A stretch of 64,000 nt of DNA from Synechococcus sp. C9. GTDB taxonomy: Bacteria > Cyanobacteriota > Cyanobacteriia > Gloeomargaritales > Gloeomargaritaceae. Of this stretch, positions 6,027 to 63,810 are shown piece after piece (the first letter of the stretch is position 1; the number at the start of each line of letters is the position of its first letter). The position numbers were made by a program, and so were the translations under genes. The notes below the pieces were generated by a model. That model was not told where the DNA came from. It saw only the letters and a list, made by a program, of their open reading frames with translations, and ran no database searches. Location: assembly GCF_022984075.1 (NCBI RefSeq), contig NZ_JALAAD010000001.1:744001-808000 (forward strand). The letters are read 5' to 3'.

Positions 6027-6508
6027 CTCTGGCTTCCTGGCTGACCTTGAGCCGGCTGCTGGTCATTCCCGGCATTTTTGTGGCTATTGCACAGTCCGAA
6101 CGCTACTGGGCGGCGGGATGGTTTTTGCTGGGTGCCTTGACCGATTGGCTGGATGGCTACGTTGCCCGTCGGTTCAACCAGGTAACTGACCTGGGCAAAT
6201 GGCTGGACCCCCTGGTGGATAAATTGCTGGTTTTGGCTCCCCTGCTGGCTCTGGTGGAGGTGGGGGAGGTGCCGGGCTGGTTGGTCTTTCTACTGTTGGC
6301 ACGGGAATTGGGGATTACAGCGTGGCGGGCGCAGTTACCCCAGATGGCAGGGGCGAATGTTTGGGGTAAACTCAAAACCGTGACTCAGGTGGGTGCCGTT
6401 GTCGGTTTAATCCTCTGGCCGGGTTGGCAAATGCAGGTTTTCTTGGTCGGAGCAGTGGTTATCAGCTGGATGTCGGGAATCATTTACCTACGGTCTGGGC
6501 AAAAATAA
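6023..6508 (+). CDS. pgsA: CDP-diacylglycerol--glycerol-3-phosphate 3-phosphatidyltransferase
   Basis: This integral membrane enzyme makes phosphatidylglycerophosphate, the precursor of phosphatidylglycerol, an essential thylakoid lipid. The CDP-alcohol phosphotransferase signature is complete: the residues D-x2-DG-x2-AR-x8-G-x3-D-x3-D are seen in DWLDGYVAR and GKWLDPLVDK. Four or so hydrophobic helices follow. I start at the ATG at 6023 (161 residues), which overlaps the previous stop; the longer open frame upstream is a shadow of the previous gene. Confidence 0.92.
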   Translation: MTLASWLTLSRLLVIPGIFVAIAQSERYWAAGWFLLGALTDWLDGYVARRFNQVTDLGKWLDPLVDKLLVLAPLLALVEVGEVPGWLVFLLLARELGITAWRAQLPQMAGANVWGKLKTVTQVGAVVGLILWPGWQMQVFLVGAVVISWMSGIIYLRSGQK

Positions 6509-6619
6509 TGTGGAGCAGTTTGTGATGGTCGTGGCACCCAATTTGAGCCAACATCATTCAACCAAAAATTATGGCGCAACCCTGCCTATTCCCTGTGCCA
6601 AAAAGTTTGGGAAAAAATC

Positions 6620-7204
6620 ATGAATGAAGGGCGACTAATCGTACTCACTGGACCAAGTGGTGTGGGCAAAGGCACCCTACTCAAACATTTGTGCCAACGT
6701 CATCCCGACTTACAAGTTTCGGTTTCTCTGACCACCCGTGCCCCCCGCCCTGGGGAAATTCCTGGTCAGTCCTATATCTTTGTCAACCGGGAGGAATTTC
6801 AAGCCGCCATCCAAGCCAATGAACTCTTAGAATGGGCGGAATACGCAGGCAATTACTACGGCACACCCCGGCGGCCGGTGGAGCAGGCATTACAAGCAGG
6901 CAAGTTGGTAATTTTAGAAATTGAAGTGGTGGGTGCCCGTCAAATTCGCCAAAATTTTCCCCAAGCCCATTTAATATTCATTGCTCCGCCAACTTGGGAA
7001 ACCTTGGAACAGCGATTGCGACAACGGGGACAGGACTCGGAAAGTGCTATGCAAAAACGGTTAGCGAGAGCCAAGGAGGAATTGCAAGCCGCCCCCGAAT
7101 TTGATGTGCAAGTGGTCAATGATGACCTTGAACAAGCCATTCACGCATTAGAAGTACACCTCGGGTTAAGGGATAGGCAAAACATCAACAATTCTGAATT
7201 TTAG
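6620..7204 (+). CDS. gmk: Guanylate kinase
   Basis: This enzyme phosphorylates GMP to GDP with ATP. The 194-residue product begins [20 protein letters not shown] with a classic P-loop (GPSGVGKGT). It has the GMP-binding region [15 protein letters not shown] and the lid-region arginines in [17 protein letters not shown]. The length is normal for the family. The gene stands alone, 111 bp after pgsA, and ends 2 bp before a dispersed repeat. Confidence 0.97.
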
Positions 7205-56448: not shown

Positions 56449-59400
56449 TTATTTTCCAATCATCTGCAATGCCTCGATCCAAATTTTGAGTTCTTGCTCA
56501 ACCAAGTTTTTATCCGTCAACTCCTGTTCCTGGTGGGCGATGTAGGTATTCCGAAAATCATTGATGCGAGTGACGGTTTCTAGCAGTTTGCGTCCGCCCT
56601 GAAAACGTAACTGAGTTTGCAAGGCTTCAAACACACCACCGATTTTCGTCGTGTCATTCAGCGCGTAGTCTAAACACGATCGTAGCAAGCCAATCAGTGA
56701 TAGCCCGTTATTAAACACCAGCGTCCGTTTCAGGTTTTGGGCCAGTTTGCGGTAGTAGTCCTCTGATTTATAGTCCACATTGCCTAGATAGGGAGCAAAC
56801 CAGGCTTTTTGCTCTTCTACTGTGATAGGCATTTGGGGTTGCAGTCGCCGCACTAAGAAGCCTTTTGCCACTTCATCAATCGAACCCAACAGGGCAGTAA
56901 AGACAGGGGCATAATTCATACCTGCTTTGTTCTCGAAGAACCGATAGAGCATGATGGCTTGATCGGCAGCACGGCGATAGCGAGAAGGCAGCGCATTGAG
57001 AATGGCTGGGTCAATCAGGCTATCCACCGTAGCACCTTCTTCGTCCGATTGCCCCAAGTTTACAAATAGCGGTAAATCTTGGAATTCCTCGGATTGGAGC
57101 AGGTTTTGCAGGGCGGGGGCACAGGCAGAGGCGAGTTCGGCAATGGTATCGCCTGTCATGCGCTCAAACACGCCTTGGGGAATGTAGAGATAGTGCCATT
57201 GGGCTATTTCTGTAGAAGCTGACTTGCACCAAGCGATTGCGGCTTTAGCCTTCAAGGGAACATCCCGATCTTCCCGCCCTTTGGTTTCCACCAGGTAGTA
57301 GTGACCATCAATCGTGCGGATGAAGAAATCGGGGGTGTAGAAGGCAAGTCTGTCTCCATTGGCCAGATAATCAATCCGCAAGCACTGGGGGCCAGCATTT
57401 TTGGCAAAGGCAACGACATCGGGGGCGCGATCGCAAAACTTGGCTACGGCCACTTCTAGTTCCCGGTTGCAGGGGACGAGGTTAAACAGGGTCTTGGCCG
57501 CTTCCAGGGCGGGGCGGCGTTCGCTGAGGGTAACTTGAAAGGGTTTCCAGGCGTTGAGCGATTTGGGTGGTTCAACCATCAGCCGTTCTTCGGTGGTAAT
57601 GGTACGGCTACGAATCAGGGGCACAAACACCGCCCGCAGGTGTTCGCCCACATCGGAATCAGCTAACCGAGCCACGAGAGCCGGATCAAATAGAGTGGTT
57701 TTTTGCTCAAATAAAACTTCTTCCAGAAAAGTCTGGATCAAGGGAGCGAGGATGGGATGCAGTCCCCGCAGTTTGCAAATCGTTTCCAGTTGCTTGACGT
57801 AGTAGGAAACTGCGCCAATCCCCGATGCCAATAGCGGTAGATTGAGTTGCAGTTTCTCCACCACTTCACCTGTAAACAGGTGTCGTCCTTCGTACTGAAT
57901 TTCGTTGTTGCCCTGTTTGCCTAGCGGCAACGGTTTATAGGGCTTAAACGCTGTTTTTACATCCTGAATCGTCAAGCCTTCCAGCTTGGGCACAATCCGA
58001 AAGCCCGCAGACAGGGTGGGAAGCTGGATATTCAGTGCATTCACATCCTTGTGGGCTTCATCAGGGAAGATAGAAATCGTGGTGGCAGGGACGCGATCTA
58101 GTTCCACAATTTCCAGTGGCAAGCCTTCCTGAGCCAGTTCGTGCTGATAAAGGCTGGCAAAGGCGGGATGTTCTACCACCGTCACCAGTTCGTTGGCTTG
58201 ACCGGGGGGAGTCATGCGACGCAAGCCCCGCCCCAGAGTTTGTTCTGGCAAAATGTTGGCTTTAGAACTGTAGGGACGCAGGGGCACGATCGTCGTCACG
58301 TTGCGCACGTCCCAGCCTTCCCGCAGCATCAGCACCGAGACAATGCAGAAATAGGGACTGGCGTTGCTATCCAGTTCCCGGCTGAGTTTTCGCAATGCCT
58401 TCAGGTCATCGTCGCTGATGGCTTTTTCGTCTTCGACAAATTCATACCGCGCCTCTTTGCCCCGTCCGACTTTTTTGAGCTTGCCCTTGAGGTTGGTGTG
58501 CAGGTTGATCGTTTTGCCGTTGAGTTGCTCAAACAGGGGGTCGGTGTTGAGGCGTTGGGTAATCTGGTCGGCAGCTTCGGTGTCATCGCACATGATGAAC
58601 AGGAGGGGCTTTTTGCTGCTGGCTTGCCATTCCTCCAGACTTTTTTTCCAGCGCTCGTAGCCCAGGAGCAAATGTTGTTCCCAGCGATAGGCGGCGTTAT
58701 CAGTTGCTTGCTCCACCAGTTTGTGGCTGGCTTGCCCAATGATCGGAGTTTTGACAATTCCGGCATCCACCGCTTCCCCCAGGGGCGTATCGCAGACAAT
58801 GTGTTTGAACAGTTGCCCTTTGTTGTCTTTGGGAGTGGCGGAAAAATCCAGTTGTGCCACCAGTTTGCAACCGCTGCGAGACAGGATGGTTTCGTGCAGG
58901 GTGCGGATCGCTTCGTTCCAGGCAGAGCCGGGGTCCCAAACGTGGTGGGCTTCGTCGTTGAGGATCATGACGCGGCGGTGGGCGGTGATGCGATCGCGCA
59001 GGGCGGCTCCCGTATCCAGTGCTTTGGTTTTTGATACTACAGGCCCCATCCAATCGTAGGTATCCTGCTCAGCTTTCTTTTTGCGTTTGGCGGTATCGTA
59101 GAGGCGATGGATATTGGTGAGGTAGAGCGTGCCACCCGTAGCGGCTCCGCTAGCTTCGTCTTGCAGTATTACCGACAAGTTCCAGTCGCCGCGCCATTCG
59201 GGAGGAATCAGGGGGTCTTCGTCAAACACGCGCCCGTTGCCAAAGTCGTCTTTGAGGCGTTCGTACACCGTCAGGTTGGGGGCAATCACCACAAAATGCC
59301 GCGCCATTTCTGAATCGGATTCCCGCAGGGCGTGGAAATAGCTCCAGACGATGCACAGGCTCATGACTTTGGTTTTGCCTGCCCCCGTTGCCAGTTTGAA

Positions 59401-59862
59401 GGCATAGCGGCTCCAGGCATCTTCGTCTTCGGTGATGCCCAATGCCTGCACTTCGGCATTTGCGCCGCCAAATTCAGCAATGAGTTGCGACAAACACTCG
59501 ATGCGCCGCACTTCTTTGAGGTAAATCAGGGTTTCTACCGCTTCCCGCTGGCAGAAGTAGTAACGAAATTCAAACTCTTCCCCATCGGGCGTGGTTTGGC
59601 GATGGGCGCGGTTAAACCAGTGGTTGAGGAGTTGAATCGTGGTGTCGCTGGCTCCGATGTAGAAGGCTTCTCGCCATTCCCGCACCGCTGCCCGCAGGTT
59701 ATTCACCACCTCGATCGGCGAAGCTCTGCGTCCTTGCCTGACCACAGCGGGGTCGCCGGATTTCTCTGCCCGCACGCGGTGGGCGTTGGGTTCTTGCCAG
59801 GGGGCAAACAGGGGTTCAAGGATGGTGGGGTTGAGAGTGGAGGAAGTCATGGATTGGGGCAT
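56449..59862 (-). CDS. Type III-like restriction subunit: SF2 helicase, PD-(D/E)XK nuclease, HEPN-like tail
   Basis: The 1137-residue protein has a Res-type helicase core: Walker A ATGAGKT at 158-164, DEAH at 303-306, FSATP at 340-344 and motif VI LGRGLRR at 543-549. A nuclease domain follows with PD at 844-845 and E859-T-K861 (YTPDFFIRTIDGHYYLVETK). The last ~250 residues are helical and end with DFRNTYIAHQ, where R1104-N1105 and H1110 match the HEPN RX4-6H motif. It presumably cuts foreign DNA that lacks the mark made by the methyltransferase five genes upstream. It may belong to the BPTD_3080-like group. It is the last gene of the minus-strand operon. Confidence 0.85.
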   Translation of the reverse strand: MPQSMTSSTLNPTILEPLFAPWQEPNAHRVRAEKSGDPAVVRQGRRASPIEVVNNLRAAVREWREAFYIGASDTTIQLLNHWFNRAHRQTTPDGEEFEFRYYFCQREAVETLIYLKEVRRIECLSQLIAEFGGANAEVQALGITEDEDAWSRYAFKLATGAGKTKVMSLCIVWSYFHALRESDSEMARHFVVIAPNLTVYERLKDDFGNGRVFDEDPLIPPEWRGDWNLSVILQDEASGAATGGTLYLTNIHRLYDTAKRKKKAEQDTYDWMGPVVSKTKALDTGAALRDRITAHRRVMILNDEAHHVWDPGSAWNEAIRTLHETILSRSGCKLVAQLDFSATPKDNKGQLFKHIVCDTPLGEAVDAGIVKTPIIGQASHKLVEQATDNAAYRWEQHLLLGYERWKKSLEEWQASSKKPLLFIMCDDTEAADQITQRLNTDPLFEQLNGKTINLHTNLKGKLKKVGRGKEARYEFVEDEKAISDDDLKALRKLSRELDSNASPYFCIVSVLMLREGWDVRNVTTIVPLRPYSSKANILPEQTLGRGLRRMTPPGQANELVTVVEHPAFASLYQHELAQEGLPLEIVELDRVPATTISIFPDEAHKDVNALNIQLPTLSAGFRIVPKLEGLTIQDVKTAFKPYKPLPLGKQGNNEIQYEGRHLFTGEVVEKLQLNLPLLASGIGAVSYYVKQLETICKLRGLHPILAPLIQTFLEEVLFEQKTTLFDPALVARLADSDVGEHLRAVFVPLIRSRTITTEERLMVEPPKSLNAWKPFQVTLSERRPALEAAKTLFNLVPCNRELEVAVAKFCDRAPDVVAFAKNAGPQCLRIDYLANGDRLAFYTPDFFIRTIDGHYYLVETKGREDRDVPLKAKAAIAWCKSASTEIAQWHYLYIPQGVFERMTGDTIAELASACAPALQNLLQSEEFQDLPLFVNLGQSDEEGATVDSLIDPAILNALPSRYRRAADQAIMLYRFFENKAGMNYAPVFTALLGSIDEVAKGFLVRRLQPQMPITVEEQKAWFAPYLGNVDYKSEDYYRKLAQNLKRTLVFNNGLSLIGLLRSCLDYALNDTTKIGGVFEALQTQLRFQGGRKLLETVTRINDFRNTYIAHQEQELTDKNLVEQELKIWIEALQMIGK

Positions 59863-59914: not shown

Positions 59915-60556
59915 TTAGCCGATCCATTCTTGGCACTGTTGGCGCAAGTTGCGGAGTGCAACACCTGTGCCTTGCTCAGCGGCGGCAGCGAACACTTGAG
60001 CGATGAGTTCAGGCAGATTTACCCCTGGGAAATAGCGACTGCGGGGTTGCAGTTCATAGGTTTCCCCTTGCAGGGCATACATCTTTAGATTGCTATTTTT
60101 GAATAACCAGACTTCAGAAACACCGTAGGGGGCATAATCTTCCGCAGCGGTATAGGTGGTCACATCAATTTCAATCACCAGATCCGGGGGCGGATCGCTC
60201 TGCCAATCGATGCGGTCTTTGCCGACGGCTGCCTGCCAGTTGTCGATGTAGAAACAGTAGTCAGGTTCAATGCCCCCTACTTCAGGAATATCCATGGTGA
60301 TGGGGGTAAAGGCTTCGTAGTTGCGATTTTCGCTATCGAGGAGGATTTCCACAATTCTGGCTAGAAGATGGGCTTCGCGCCCGTGGCGGGGTAGGGGACT
60401 CATCAGCAAAATTTCTCCGTCGCGATACTTAATGCGGGGGAGGGAGCCATCGCCGCGACTATCGCGTAGGGTGCAGTAGTCTTGCCAGGTTCCGGGCATT
60501 CGCATGACGCTACCGGGGGGAAGATGGATTTTTTCACGAGAGATGACCGCATACAT
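59915..60556 (-). CDS. Uma2-family PD-(D/E)XK endonuclease-like protein (2)
   Basis: The 213-residue protein has the Uma2 (DUF820) fold signature: EPDYCFYIDN, then PPDLVIEIDVTTYTAAEDYA with the catalytic D-x-E-V-like pattern, and YGVSEVWLFKNSNLKMYALQ. Uma2 proteins are very abundant in cyanobacteria and their role is largely unknown; nuclease activity is predicted from fold. It lies 52 bp upstream of the restriction subunit and 8 bp downstream of another Uma2 gene. It differs from that copy in sequence, so the two are not a recent duplication. Confidence 0.85.
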   Translation of the reverse strand: MYAVISREKIHLPPGSVMRMPGTWQDYCTLRDSRGDGSLPRIKYRDGEILLMSPLPRHGREAHLLARIVEILLDSENRNYEAFTPITMDIPEVGGIEPDYCFYIDNWQAAVGKDRIDWQSDPPPDLVIEIDVTTYTAAEDYAPYGVSEVWLFKNSNLKMYALQGETYELQPRSRYFPGVNLPELIAQVFAAAAEQGTGVALRNLRQQCQEWIG

Positions 60557-60564
60557 AAGCCAAC

Positions 60565-61146
60565 CTAGAATGAGAGCTTTTGAAACAGTTCGGCAACGGG
60601 TAGCGTGAATCCGGGAATCACCTCTTCGCCATCGAGGGAATCAACAGACTTTAGCAGACGATCCGGTTCTTGGGCAGACCGATAAACCAAGATATAGTGT
60701 TCGCTGGGGTGAATAATCCAGACCAGACGGGTGCCATTCTCAAAGTATTCCACCAGCTTGTCGTGAATCTCTTCTACGGTGTTGCCAGGAGACAGCACTT
60801 CAATCGCCAAATCCGGCGCACCATCCAGAAATCCCGTAGGCAGTTCGGTCATGCCTTGCAGGCGTTCTTTGGCAAAGAAGGAGATATCGGGCGATCGCCG
60901 ATTTCCACTCTTCATTTTGAAGGCAGTGCTGGAATCAAAGATGGCTCCAAGCTTGTGGGTACGGATATAAGCTCCAAGCAGGATTATGATTGTGCTACAA
61001 ACATAGCCATGCAGTGCCCCTGAACTTCCCATATCAACTAATTCTCCATTCACAATTTCATAGTGATGACCGTCCTTGGGCAGTGCCATAAACTCTTCAT
61101 CTGTCCAAACCTTTTTTTCTGTTTTCAACTCAGTTGCGATGGACAT
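60565..61146 (-). CDS. Uma2-family PD-(D/E)XK endonuclease-like protein (1)
   Basis: The 193-residue protein follows the standard Uma2 pattern: VWTDEEFMALPKDGHHYEIV then NGELVDMG, the conserved acid in RSPDISFFAKERLQ, PDLAIEVLSPGNTVEEIHDK and GTRLVWIIHPSEHYILVYRS, ending in the GEEVIPGFTLPVAELF tail. It is unusually typical of the family. It starts 33 bp after the DUF2283 gene. Its function within the island is unknown; it may be a passenger. Confidence 0.88.
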   Translation of the reverse strand: MSIATELKTEKKVWTDEEFMALPKDGHHYEIVNGELVDMGSSGALHGYVCSTIIILLGAYIRTHKLGAIFDSSTAFKMKSGNRRSPDISFFAKERLQGMTELPTGFLDGAPDLAIEVLSPGNTVEEIHDKLVEYFENGTRLVWIIHPSEHYILVYRSAQEPDRLLKSVDSLDGEEVIPGFTLPVAELFQKLSF

Positions 61147-61179: not shown

Positions 61180-61404
61180 CTAAGCCGCACTTCCTTTTCC
61201 TGATAACAGCTCCGCAATCAATGGTTTTGACTTAGCAAGTTGACTCACTGCCATAATGGAGAAGCCGAGAAGGTTGCCCTCCAAATCTACCCGTTCCATA
61301 ACGGCATCGTTTTCTGTTTCCCGCATATAACCGGGAGCATCCGAGAAAATAACCTCTAGAAAGTCAGCTTCCGGATCAAACCAAACTTTTACTCGCTCTG
61401 CCAT
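61180..61404 (-). CDS. DUF2283 protein (antitoxin-like)
   Basis: The 74-residue product has the DUF2283 core VKVWFDPEADFLEVIFSDAP and the ERVDLEGNLLGFSIMAVSQL strand-helix. DUF2283 genes are usually found next to small RelE-like or DUF4258-type toxin genes and are taken as antitoxins. Here the partner gene lies immediately upstream and overlaps it by 16 bp, which fits a toxin-antitoxin pair with tight coupling. The assignment as antitoxin is inference. Confidence 0.75.
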   Translation of the reverse strand: MAERVKVWFDPEADFLEVIFSDAPGYMRETENDAVMERVDLEGNLLGFSIMAVSQLAKSKPLIAELLSGKGSAA

Positions 61405-61700
61405 AGGGTTTCTCCTTTTTTGGGTTTATCAGTGAAATAGGCGGTGACAATAAAAGCATCATCGGGGAGATATTTCACCACCACACAAAGCCATTTATCT
61501 CCAATCGCCGTTTGGGTATAGAACCGATAAAGCAGTGCCACGCTTTCATCACTGCGAGATTGACGTACCAGTTTTGGCTGCTTCAGAGTGTCAACGATTT
61601 GAGCCTCCATGCCGACCATTTCAGGGTGACCGAGAATATGTGCTAACCGTTCTTCGGTCAAACGTACTTCTCGGTTCTGATAGTCGAGCAGGATGGGCAC
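61389..61700 (-). CDS. RelE/PBECR-like small nuclease-fold protein (putative toxin)
   Basis: The 103-residue product has VRLTEERLAHILGHPEMVGM, a spaced QIVDTLKQPKLVRQSRSDES, then ALLYRFYTQTAIGDKWLCVV and DDAFIVTAYFTDKPKKGE. The HxxxHPE-like opening and the final strand pair resemble the PBECR/RelE-like nuclease folds found in prophage and cyanobacterial proteins. The catalytic residues cannot be named with confidence. It overlaps the DUF2283 gene and begins 4 bp after the methyltransferase stop. Confidence 0.6.
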   Translation of the reverse strand: MPILLDYQNREVRLTEERLAHILGHPEMVGMEAQIVDTLKQPKLVRQSRSDESVALLYRFYTQTAIGDKWLCVVVKYLPDDAFIVTAYFTDKPKKGETLWQSE

Positions 61701-61704
61701 CAGG

Positions 61705-63756
61705 CTACACCTCCACCTCTACGGTAATCGAGGTGTCGCAGCCGAAGGTGTCTACTACCTTGACGCAAGCAGTGTATTTGCCAGGTTGATGATAAGTATA
61801 ACCGGCATCGCTGATGGTTTTGAGGGAGCGGTCTTTGCGGGTACGGTAGTCTTGCCAGTCGTGGGTGAAGGGCTTGCCCGGTTGCCAGTTGAAATCCACT
61901 GCCCAGAAATCAATAAAATCAAAGCCGCTTTTAATAGCTCGTTCCTTGATCGCTTCCAGTTCTTTGGTGGGCACTTCGGCAAGAGATGGGATGAACTGAG
62001 TGAGTTTGATGTCCACCGTTTTGCCTTTTTCACTGGTGCGATAAACGGGTTCAGCCACTAGAACTGCCACTTCCAAAAATGGCGGCGGCGACTTGCGATT
62101 CTTCTCCATAATTTCGCGGGGAATCTGCACCAGCTTCAGCTTTACGCCCAACTCTTGCACTAGGGCATTCACGGTCAAGTGCAAGTCCATCTCAAATTCC
62201 CAGGCGAGACAATAGCACTCCCGCCCGCCCGCAGAGGCAACCGCTTGGGCAACCTGTTTGGCTTCCTCACGGGTAAAGATGGAGTCAATACCATCCACAT
62301 GGCAAAATGCCCCGGCTTTGCGCCCATGCAACAGGGGTGAGGGGGGATGGGTGAGGATTTCGGCTTTGAAGAACTCCAGAATCACCCGCCGATGTTCTTC
62401 ATCGGCTCCCTGCAAGCGGTCTTTTTGCCACCACTGCCGCTCGTAGCGACCGAGGTTATAGACATCAAAGGCGCGATAGGGTTTGCCCTCACTGTGCAGT
62501 TTGCGCTGTAGCTCAATCAGCCGCTTGCGCGACGTGTGGATGGCAAACCGCCCCAAGTCGCACATGATCCACCTGCGCCCCAACCGCTCCGCCACCGCCC
62601 CGGTGGTGCCACTGCCACAAAAGAAATCAGCGACGAGATCGCCCTCGTTGGAAGCTAAAGCAATAATTCGTTCAAGTAATGCCTCTGGCTTCTGAGTGTC
62701 ATAACCTGTTTTCTCAAAAGATTGAGGTTGTACGGTATTTATGTCCAACCATAAATCTTGAAGTGGAATCCCTTGCATCTCATCCAAATATCTCTTTTGG
62801 CGAGGCACTGTTCCAGGCTTTGTTTGAACAATTCGACCTTGTTCATAAAGATCTTTCATTCTCTCTTGGCTAAATCGCCAGAATCGGGTGATGCCAAGAA
62901 ATTCATAATATGGGTTGCCTTTTGTAGCACCTCCAGGAGCGGTAATATCTCCTAATTGATAACGTCTATTAGTCTCTGGTTCTACAAACTTATAAAAAGA
63001 CTCAGCATATTCCTTTGAGTAGGGAGTATATTGCATATTCCAAGTGAAACTCTCAGACTTGGAATACAGAAAAATAACATCATGAATACGCCCAAGATGT
63101 TGCGAACCTTGACCAATATCACTATGGGCTGTTTGTCGTTTCCAAATAATTTGATTTAGGAATTGAGTATTACCAAAAACATCATCAAGTAATGCTTTGA
63201 CTTGATGAGACACAAACCAACCAATATGAACAAAAATCAAACCTTTATCGTTCAGTAATTCTCTAGCAAGGACGAGTCGTTCATAAATCATTTGCAGAAA
63301 AGAATCAGTACCTTTCCCCCAAATGTCACGGTAAGCAACCATTTCTAACGTTGATTGCTCCTTCGCTAAAGTTTCATTCTCTTCGCCAATAGGAACATCT
63401 AAGGTAAAATCCGCGCCGACATCAAACGGTGGGTCGATATAAATCAGGTCAATCTTGCCCTTAAACTCTTGCAACAGGGAAGCCATCACCAGCTTGTTGT
63501 CGCCCCAGATCAGCCGATTGCGAAAATCATCCACGCGGGGATTCTGCTGTTCAAATAATTCCAACTGCCCCGTTGCCGCTGCTGCCCGTCGGGGTTCATC
63601 AATGCTTTCAATCTTCTGCATGGGCATGGCACACCCGGCAATATCCACCTCGCGGCGGTTGCCATACTCGTCATACTTGCCCTCCCAGATCAGTTCCGTC
63701 CGCATTTGGGAGAGGGGGTGGGGGTTGTGGGGACCGTAGGTGGGTTGCTGGGTCAT
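61705..63756 (-). CDS. Site-specific N6-adenine DNA methyltransferase (type III Mod-like) with C-terminal extension
   Basis: The protein (683 residues from the ATG at 63756) has the catalytic DPPF at about residue 108 in [14 protein letters not shown] and the SAM motif FFCGSGTTG at about 378, the beta-class order of type III and related methyltransferases. A target-recognition region lies between. The C-terminal ~200 residues are an extra module, finishing in [20 protein letters not shown] then [11 protein letters not shown], which looks like a PKD-type beta-sandwich. It is the first gene of the island operon and should protect host DNA from the restriction subunit. Confidence 0.88.
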
Positions 63757-63810
63757 GAACAAAAGGTTTGTAGTTATGACTTGGGTCGTTGCTGATAAGT
63801 GAACGAACGA

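Follow-up and report, generated by a model that had tools for sequence, protein, structure and literature searches.

The window, by which we mean the whole 64,000-nucleotide stretch of DNA analysed here, encodes a type III-like pair of DNA methyltransferase (Mod) and restriction subunit (Res) in which Res carries a putative HEPN RNase at its C-terminus, probably acting in dormancy or abortive defence. We assign this reading a probability of about 0.6. The evidence that carries it comprises the architecture of the Res chain, an invariant set of arginine, asparagine and histidine residues, the predicted helical topology of the C-terminal domain, a single HEPN-bearing clade of Res proteins and the partnership of Res with Mod.

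The Mod-Res locus

Res is encoded at positions 56449-59862 of the minus strand and comprises 1137 amino acids arranged as SF2 helicase, PD-(D/E)XK endonuclease and C-terminal HEPN-like domain, as delineated by Pfam and PADLOC matches and by conserved residues. Residues 122-345 match the Pfam family ResIII (E 3e-13), and the protein is also matched by the PADLOC model REase_III (E 5e-24). The Walker A residue K163 and the box D303-E304-A-H306 are present in 55/55 homologues, and the same holds for D845, E859 and K861 of the PD-(D/E)XK nuclease motif (D845 to K861; 57280-57330, minus strand). As none of the 55 homologues departs from these Walker A, DEAH and nuclease residues, both helicase and DNase look intact. 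An initial annotation of this DNA had described a helicase and a DNA nuclease in one chain with an HEPN-like tail, and for the helicase and the nuclease this description is borne out by the catalytic residues. The best NCBIfam match of Res is NF046055 (BPTD_3080 family, E 3e-82), a likeness that covers the helicase half. Membership in this family was ruled out by score, since the cut-off is 800 bits and Res reaches 277, and the cyanobacterial relatives of the family lie outside the clade of Res proteins with and without HEPN in the tree described below.

The partner of Res, a type III-like DNA methyltransferase, is found at 61705-63762 on the minus strand (Pfam N6_N4_Mtase, E 8e-44; PADLOC MTase_III, E 3e-226). 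Its DPPF motif precedes FCGSGT, the sequence order of a beta-order amino-methyltransferase, and of the homologous loci that had sufficient flanking sequence, most carry a relative of Mod upstream of Res. With Mod and an adjacent Res that combines an SF2 helicase with a PD-(D/E)XK nuclease, the window locus has the components that define a type III restriction-modification (R-M) system. At the extreme C-terminus of Mod (residues 647-685), a weak PKD-like match was observed. The interval between Mod and Res holds three ORFs, two of the Uma2 family and one that is DUF4258/PBECR2-like (59915-61146 and 61389-61700, minus strand). Because the DUF4258 ORF has relatives in about six of the homologous loci, the Mod-Res gap may be an insertion site or carry a third component.

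The RN-x4-H motif and the distribution of the domain

Downstream of the nuclease, Res continues into an extension of residues ~905-1137 (56452-57150, minus strand), delimited by alignments and an AlphaFold2 model and missing from HEPN-less homologues. Close to its end lies the RN-x4-H motif DFRNTYIAHQ (residues 1102-1111; 56530-56559, minus strand), with R1104, N1105 and H1110 at the positions given in the initial annotation. The same annotation had pointed to a polar residue following the arginine, as in HEPN nucleases, and had proposed conservation of R and H as a check. Both points held: the polar residue is N1105, kept in 54/55 homologues, while R1104 and H1110 are found in 55/55 full-length homologues, a count biased by the fact that many of these loci were retrieved with a peptide pattern including the motif. 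F1103 and A1109 are likewise present in 55/55, and C914, D996, P1012, G1058 and W1128 are equally invariant C-terminal positions outside the motif.

Taken from the lone Res sequence, the motif is weak evidence and not beyond chance, since Rx4-6H occurs three times in it (R289, R849 and R1104). Conservation of R1104 and H1110 carries weight solely on account of the variability in the rest of the C-terminal region, with a median identity of homologues to the window Res of ~45% compared with 74% for the helicase. R and H are also kept in 16/16 intact loci matched solely by another, motif-free peptide pattern, and another three loci, in which no motif could be read, carry frameshifts. Searching 373 cyanobacterial genomes with a C-terminal profile gave six with a match in an intact Res, all of which keep R and H and are the same proteins from which the profile was built. 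A whole-protein search of 388 genomes from a second phylum yielded two intact long homologues, both with the motif. A chance motif as the full account is ruled out by the invariance of R and H together with this motif-independent recovery. A second Rx5H is found in the helicase core (LRDRITAH, R289-H295; 58978-58998, minus strand), where it is kept in 54/55 homologues and is probably structural; its conservation is a warning that the motif alone is insufficient for an HEPN call.

The Mod-Res chassis is also found in homologues at 31-37% identity, which stop right after the nuclease and lack the C-terminal domain. Similarity comparisons of the flanks of four such HEPN-less loci placed Mod upstream in at least three, and in the fourth (L173) a 763-aa ORF upstream of Res starts like the Mod of another HEPN-less locus, L171. 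Judged by these sequence comparisons, the C-terminal domain is an added module on a Mod-Res chassis. In a tree of 41 proteins, those with HEPN form a single clade, and the proteins with and without the domain each need one change (support 91/98 and 99/93). A single evolutionary gain (or loss) best accounts for the presence of the HEPN domain on Res. Going by record titles, HEPN-bearing genomes cover roughly 15 phyla, including the archaeal Methanothrix, and most Res homologues come from metagenome-assembled genomes. In locus L171, a HepT-like HEPN is encoded by a gene of its own that lies between Mod and the HEPN-less Res (6437-6841 of that locus, minus strand; PF01934, E 3e-18), slightly overlapping Res and with no obvious MNT antitoxin among the ORFs listed; this gene suggests that HEPN has been tied to the Mod-Res chassis more than once. 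Broken Res copies with frameshifts or truncations occur in seven loci from several genomes, among them a second, degraded copy in one genome whose C-terminal part is split. A search for carriage of the C-terminal domain by phages and plasmids found none.

Conservation and distribution both bear on an alternative in which the HEPN fold serves assembly or regulation, via Res-Res or Res-Mod contacts or nucleic-acid binding, with R and H having a binding or structural role. For some HEPN domains, binding without catalysis is the accepted view (PMC3710099), and the five residues outside the motif are as invariant as the motif itself, which points to conserved structural constraints too. However, supposedly non-catalytic HEPN domains mostly lack Rx4-6H, whereas R, N and H are essentially invariant here across ~15 phyla, and the existence of HEPN-less homologues on the same Mod-Res chassis argues that the domain is unnecessary for basic assembly. 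We therefore regard a purely non-catalytic role as unlikely and favor a putative RNase.

Predicted structure and profile comparisons

Modeling of the C-terminal region with AlphaFold2, based on a 53-sequence alignment, resulted in an all-helical structure (pLDDT 88.3, pTM 0.77). Model helices and hhalign comparisons with controls place an HEPN-like four-helix core at residues ~1031-1136 (56455-56772, minus strand), with helices at 1031-1050, 1056-1069, 1090-1109 and 1118-1136 and a short additional helix at 1076-1084. The last ~80 residues of Res had initially been described as helical, in agreement with residues 1055-1137 of this confident model. The domain itself had been located at 56449-56700, which holds true for the motif site while the predicted domain extends further.

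In the model, helix 1090-1109 carries R1104 close to its end, the loop that follows begins with H1110, and the domain finishes with helix 1118-1136. The published HEPN layout has R at a helix end followed by a polar residue, H in a loop and a last helix (PMC3710099). An insert between helices 2 and 3, a further HEPN trait, is represented by the short helix 1076-1084 preceding the motif helix. As modeled, the helix topology of the C-terminal domain matches the published HEPN description (PMC3710099). The acidic residue of helix 2, present in many but not all HEPN families, is variable in this family (D1065; D/E/H/Q), and the invariant D996 lies outside the HEPN-like core.

Using hhalign, the C-terminal segment was compared with alignments of five HEPN families that had been assembled from genome sequences. 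The null consisted of 106 windows taken in forward and reversed form from the remainder of Res, and a phycobilisome alignment served as an unrelated helical control. The segment scored 27.3 against AbiU2, 23.2 against Apea, 22.3 against DUF4145 and 20.0 against RiboL-PSP, each above all 106 null windows, with hhalign probabilities that are low in absolute terms and much of the score coming from the motif itself. The fifth profile, MAE_28990, scored 15.6 and failed to beat the control windows, and the phycobilisome control scored 12. Known HEPN families scored 12-25 against each other in the same set-up, the sister pair RiboL-PSP/MAE_28990 aside, so that the segment performs about as well as pairs of established families. 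For AbiU2, Apea and RiboL-PSP, the R, N and H residues of Res were aligned to the family's own motif. Further, sub-threshold Pfam matches were seen to AbiU2 (13/53 members) and Apea (6/53), as well as to Abi_2 and HEPN-like_int, and the PADLOC model Cas13-ApeA was matched by 3/53 members.

These results can be weighed against the possibility that the region is an unrelated all-helical domain whose conserved R...H pair resembles the HEPN motif by accident. A Foldseek search of PDB and BFVD with the C-terminal model, run without a known HEPN as positive control, gave nothing significant for any fold, and the top matches were unrelated helical proteins, none of them HEPN. None of the Pfam or NCBIfam HEPN models reached its cut-off on Res or the 53 members, NCBIfam and PHROGs scans of the 53 members returned no HEPN model, and PDB sequence searches with the single Res protein and with the A3 profile returned no HEPN. 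The Rx5H of the helicase core, surely no HEPN site, is similarly conserved. Yet the position of the motif within the helices and the asparagine after the arginine fit HEPN, and four HEPN profiles score above all nulls with the motif residues in register in three of them. An accidental resemblance is accordingly quite improbable. As Foldseek gave no structural match, the fold assignment rests on topology and profiles. Thus, the HEPN assignment of the initial annotation stands as far as the R/N/H residues, topology and four of five profiles above controls are concerned, while the structural match it had proposed to look for with Foldseek was not obtained. We consider it probable that the C-terminal domain of Res belongs to the HEPN superfamily.

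Proposed function and comparison with known systems

We infer the RNase activity of the domain, its trigger and its RNA target as follows. The HEPN domain would be a metal-independent RNase, silent in the resting Mod-Res complex and switched on when the enzyme engages invading DNA that lacks the modification, or once restriction has been blocked or overwhelmed. Once activated, it would cleave RNA and lead to dormancy or abortive infection, alongside DNA cutting. By analogy with PrrC and with HEPN/R-M precedents, abortive RNA cleavage by this domain may reasonably be proposed.

Cleavage by type III R-M systems is ATP-dependent and requires two inverted sites. A characterized type III complex is Mod2Res1, with one Res per Mod dimer, and cutting follows when two such complexes encounter each other on the DNA (PMC4005696). 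In HEPN RNases, Csm6 being one example, the active site is shared between the two subunits of a dimer (PMC4748810). With one Res per complex, a dimeric HEPN site and two complexes meeting, the RNase might therefore assemble only in the collision complex. We put forward only tentatively, and with considerable doubt, that assembly takes place exclusively when two Res meet on unmodified DNA, one event then triggering both cutting and dormancy. If true, this would amount to the pairing of R-M with PrrC condensed into a single polypeptide. Another trigger, equally open, would be release on anti-restriction, as in case of PrrC (PMC12707154).

An active HEPN RNase that is not an abortive toxin, hitting phage transcripts near the restricted DNA or general mRNA at a low level, seems hardly probable: attack on viral RNA is a published HEPN mode (RNase LS, LsoA; PMC3710099), but for R-M-linked HEPN domains it has been argued that self RNA is the target (PMC3710099). 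If the domain is instead the abortive RNase that we favor, DNA restriction and an abortive RNA toxin would be combined in one chain across ~15 phyla including archaea. Provided that the domain is an active RNase, the two functions of Res could be uncoupled by changing just two residues. The Mod-Res chassis occurs naturally with and without HEPN, and the system would then be well suited to the study of restriction-dormancy coupling.

Fusions of HEPN domains to nuclease or helicase subunits of R-M systems have already been described (Anantharaman 2013; PMC3710099). HsdR-DUF4145 and the other HEPN-R-M fusions (PMC3710099) resemble the window Res in placing HEPN on a helicase-nuclease subunit and in their proposed two-pronged defence. 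In the HsdR fusions, the HEPN domain is DUF4145 and, in a type I HsdR from a genome of the window's own genus (DUF4145 HEPN, HSDR_N and ResIII), N-terminal, whereas in the window the HEPN represents a different family that has no name and sits at the C-terminal end of a type III-like Res, which is accompanied by a Mod. Among Pfam, NCBIfam and PADLOC, no model names this domain. PrrC with the type IC system EcoPrrI similarly ties an HEPN RNase to restriction as a further defensive layer (PMC3710099; PMC12707154), but PrrC, an ABC-ATPase/HEPN protein, stands apart from the subunits of the type I system it accompanies while the window HEPN lies inside the restriction subunit. The type III systems EcoP15I and EcoPI share with the window locus the combination of Mod and Res and the SF2 helicase and PD-(D/E)XK nuclease within Res. 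EcoP15I Res is a marginal sequence match to the window Res (E 0.8), and the C-terminal HEPN-like extension of the window protein is extra. In the literature consulted, no account was found that explicitly places HEPN on a type III or type III-like Res. HEPN fusion to restriction subunits is thus known, and its predicted C-terminal placement on a type III-like Res appears to be the new part.
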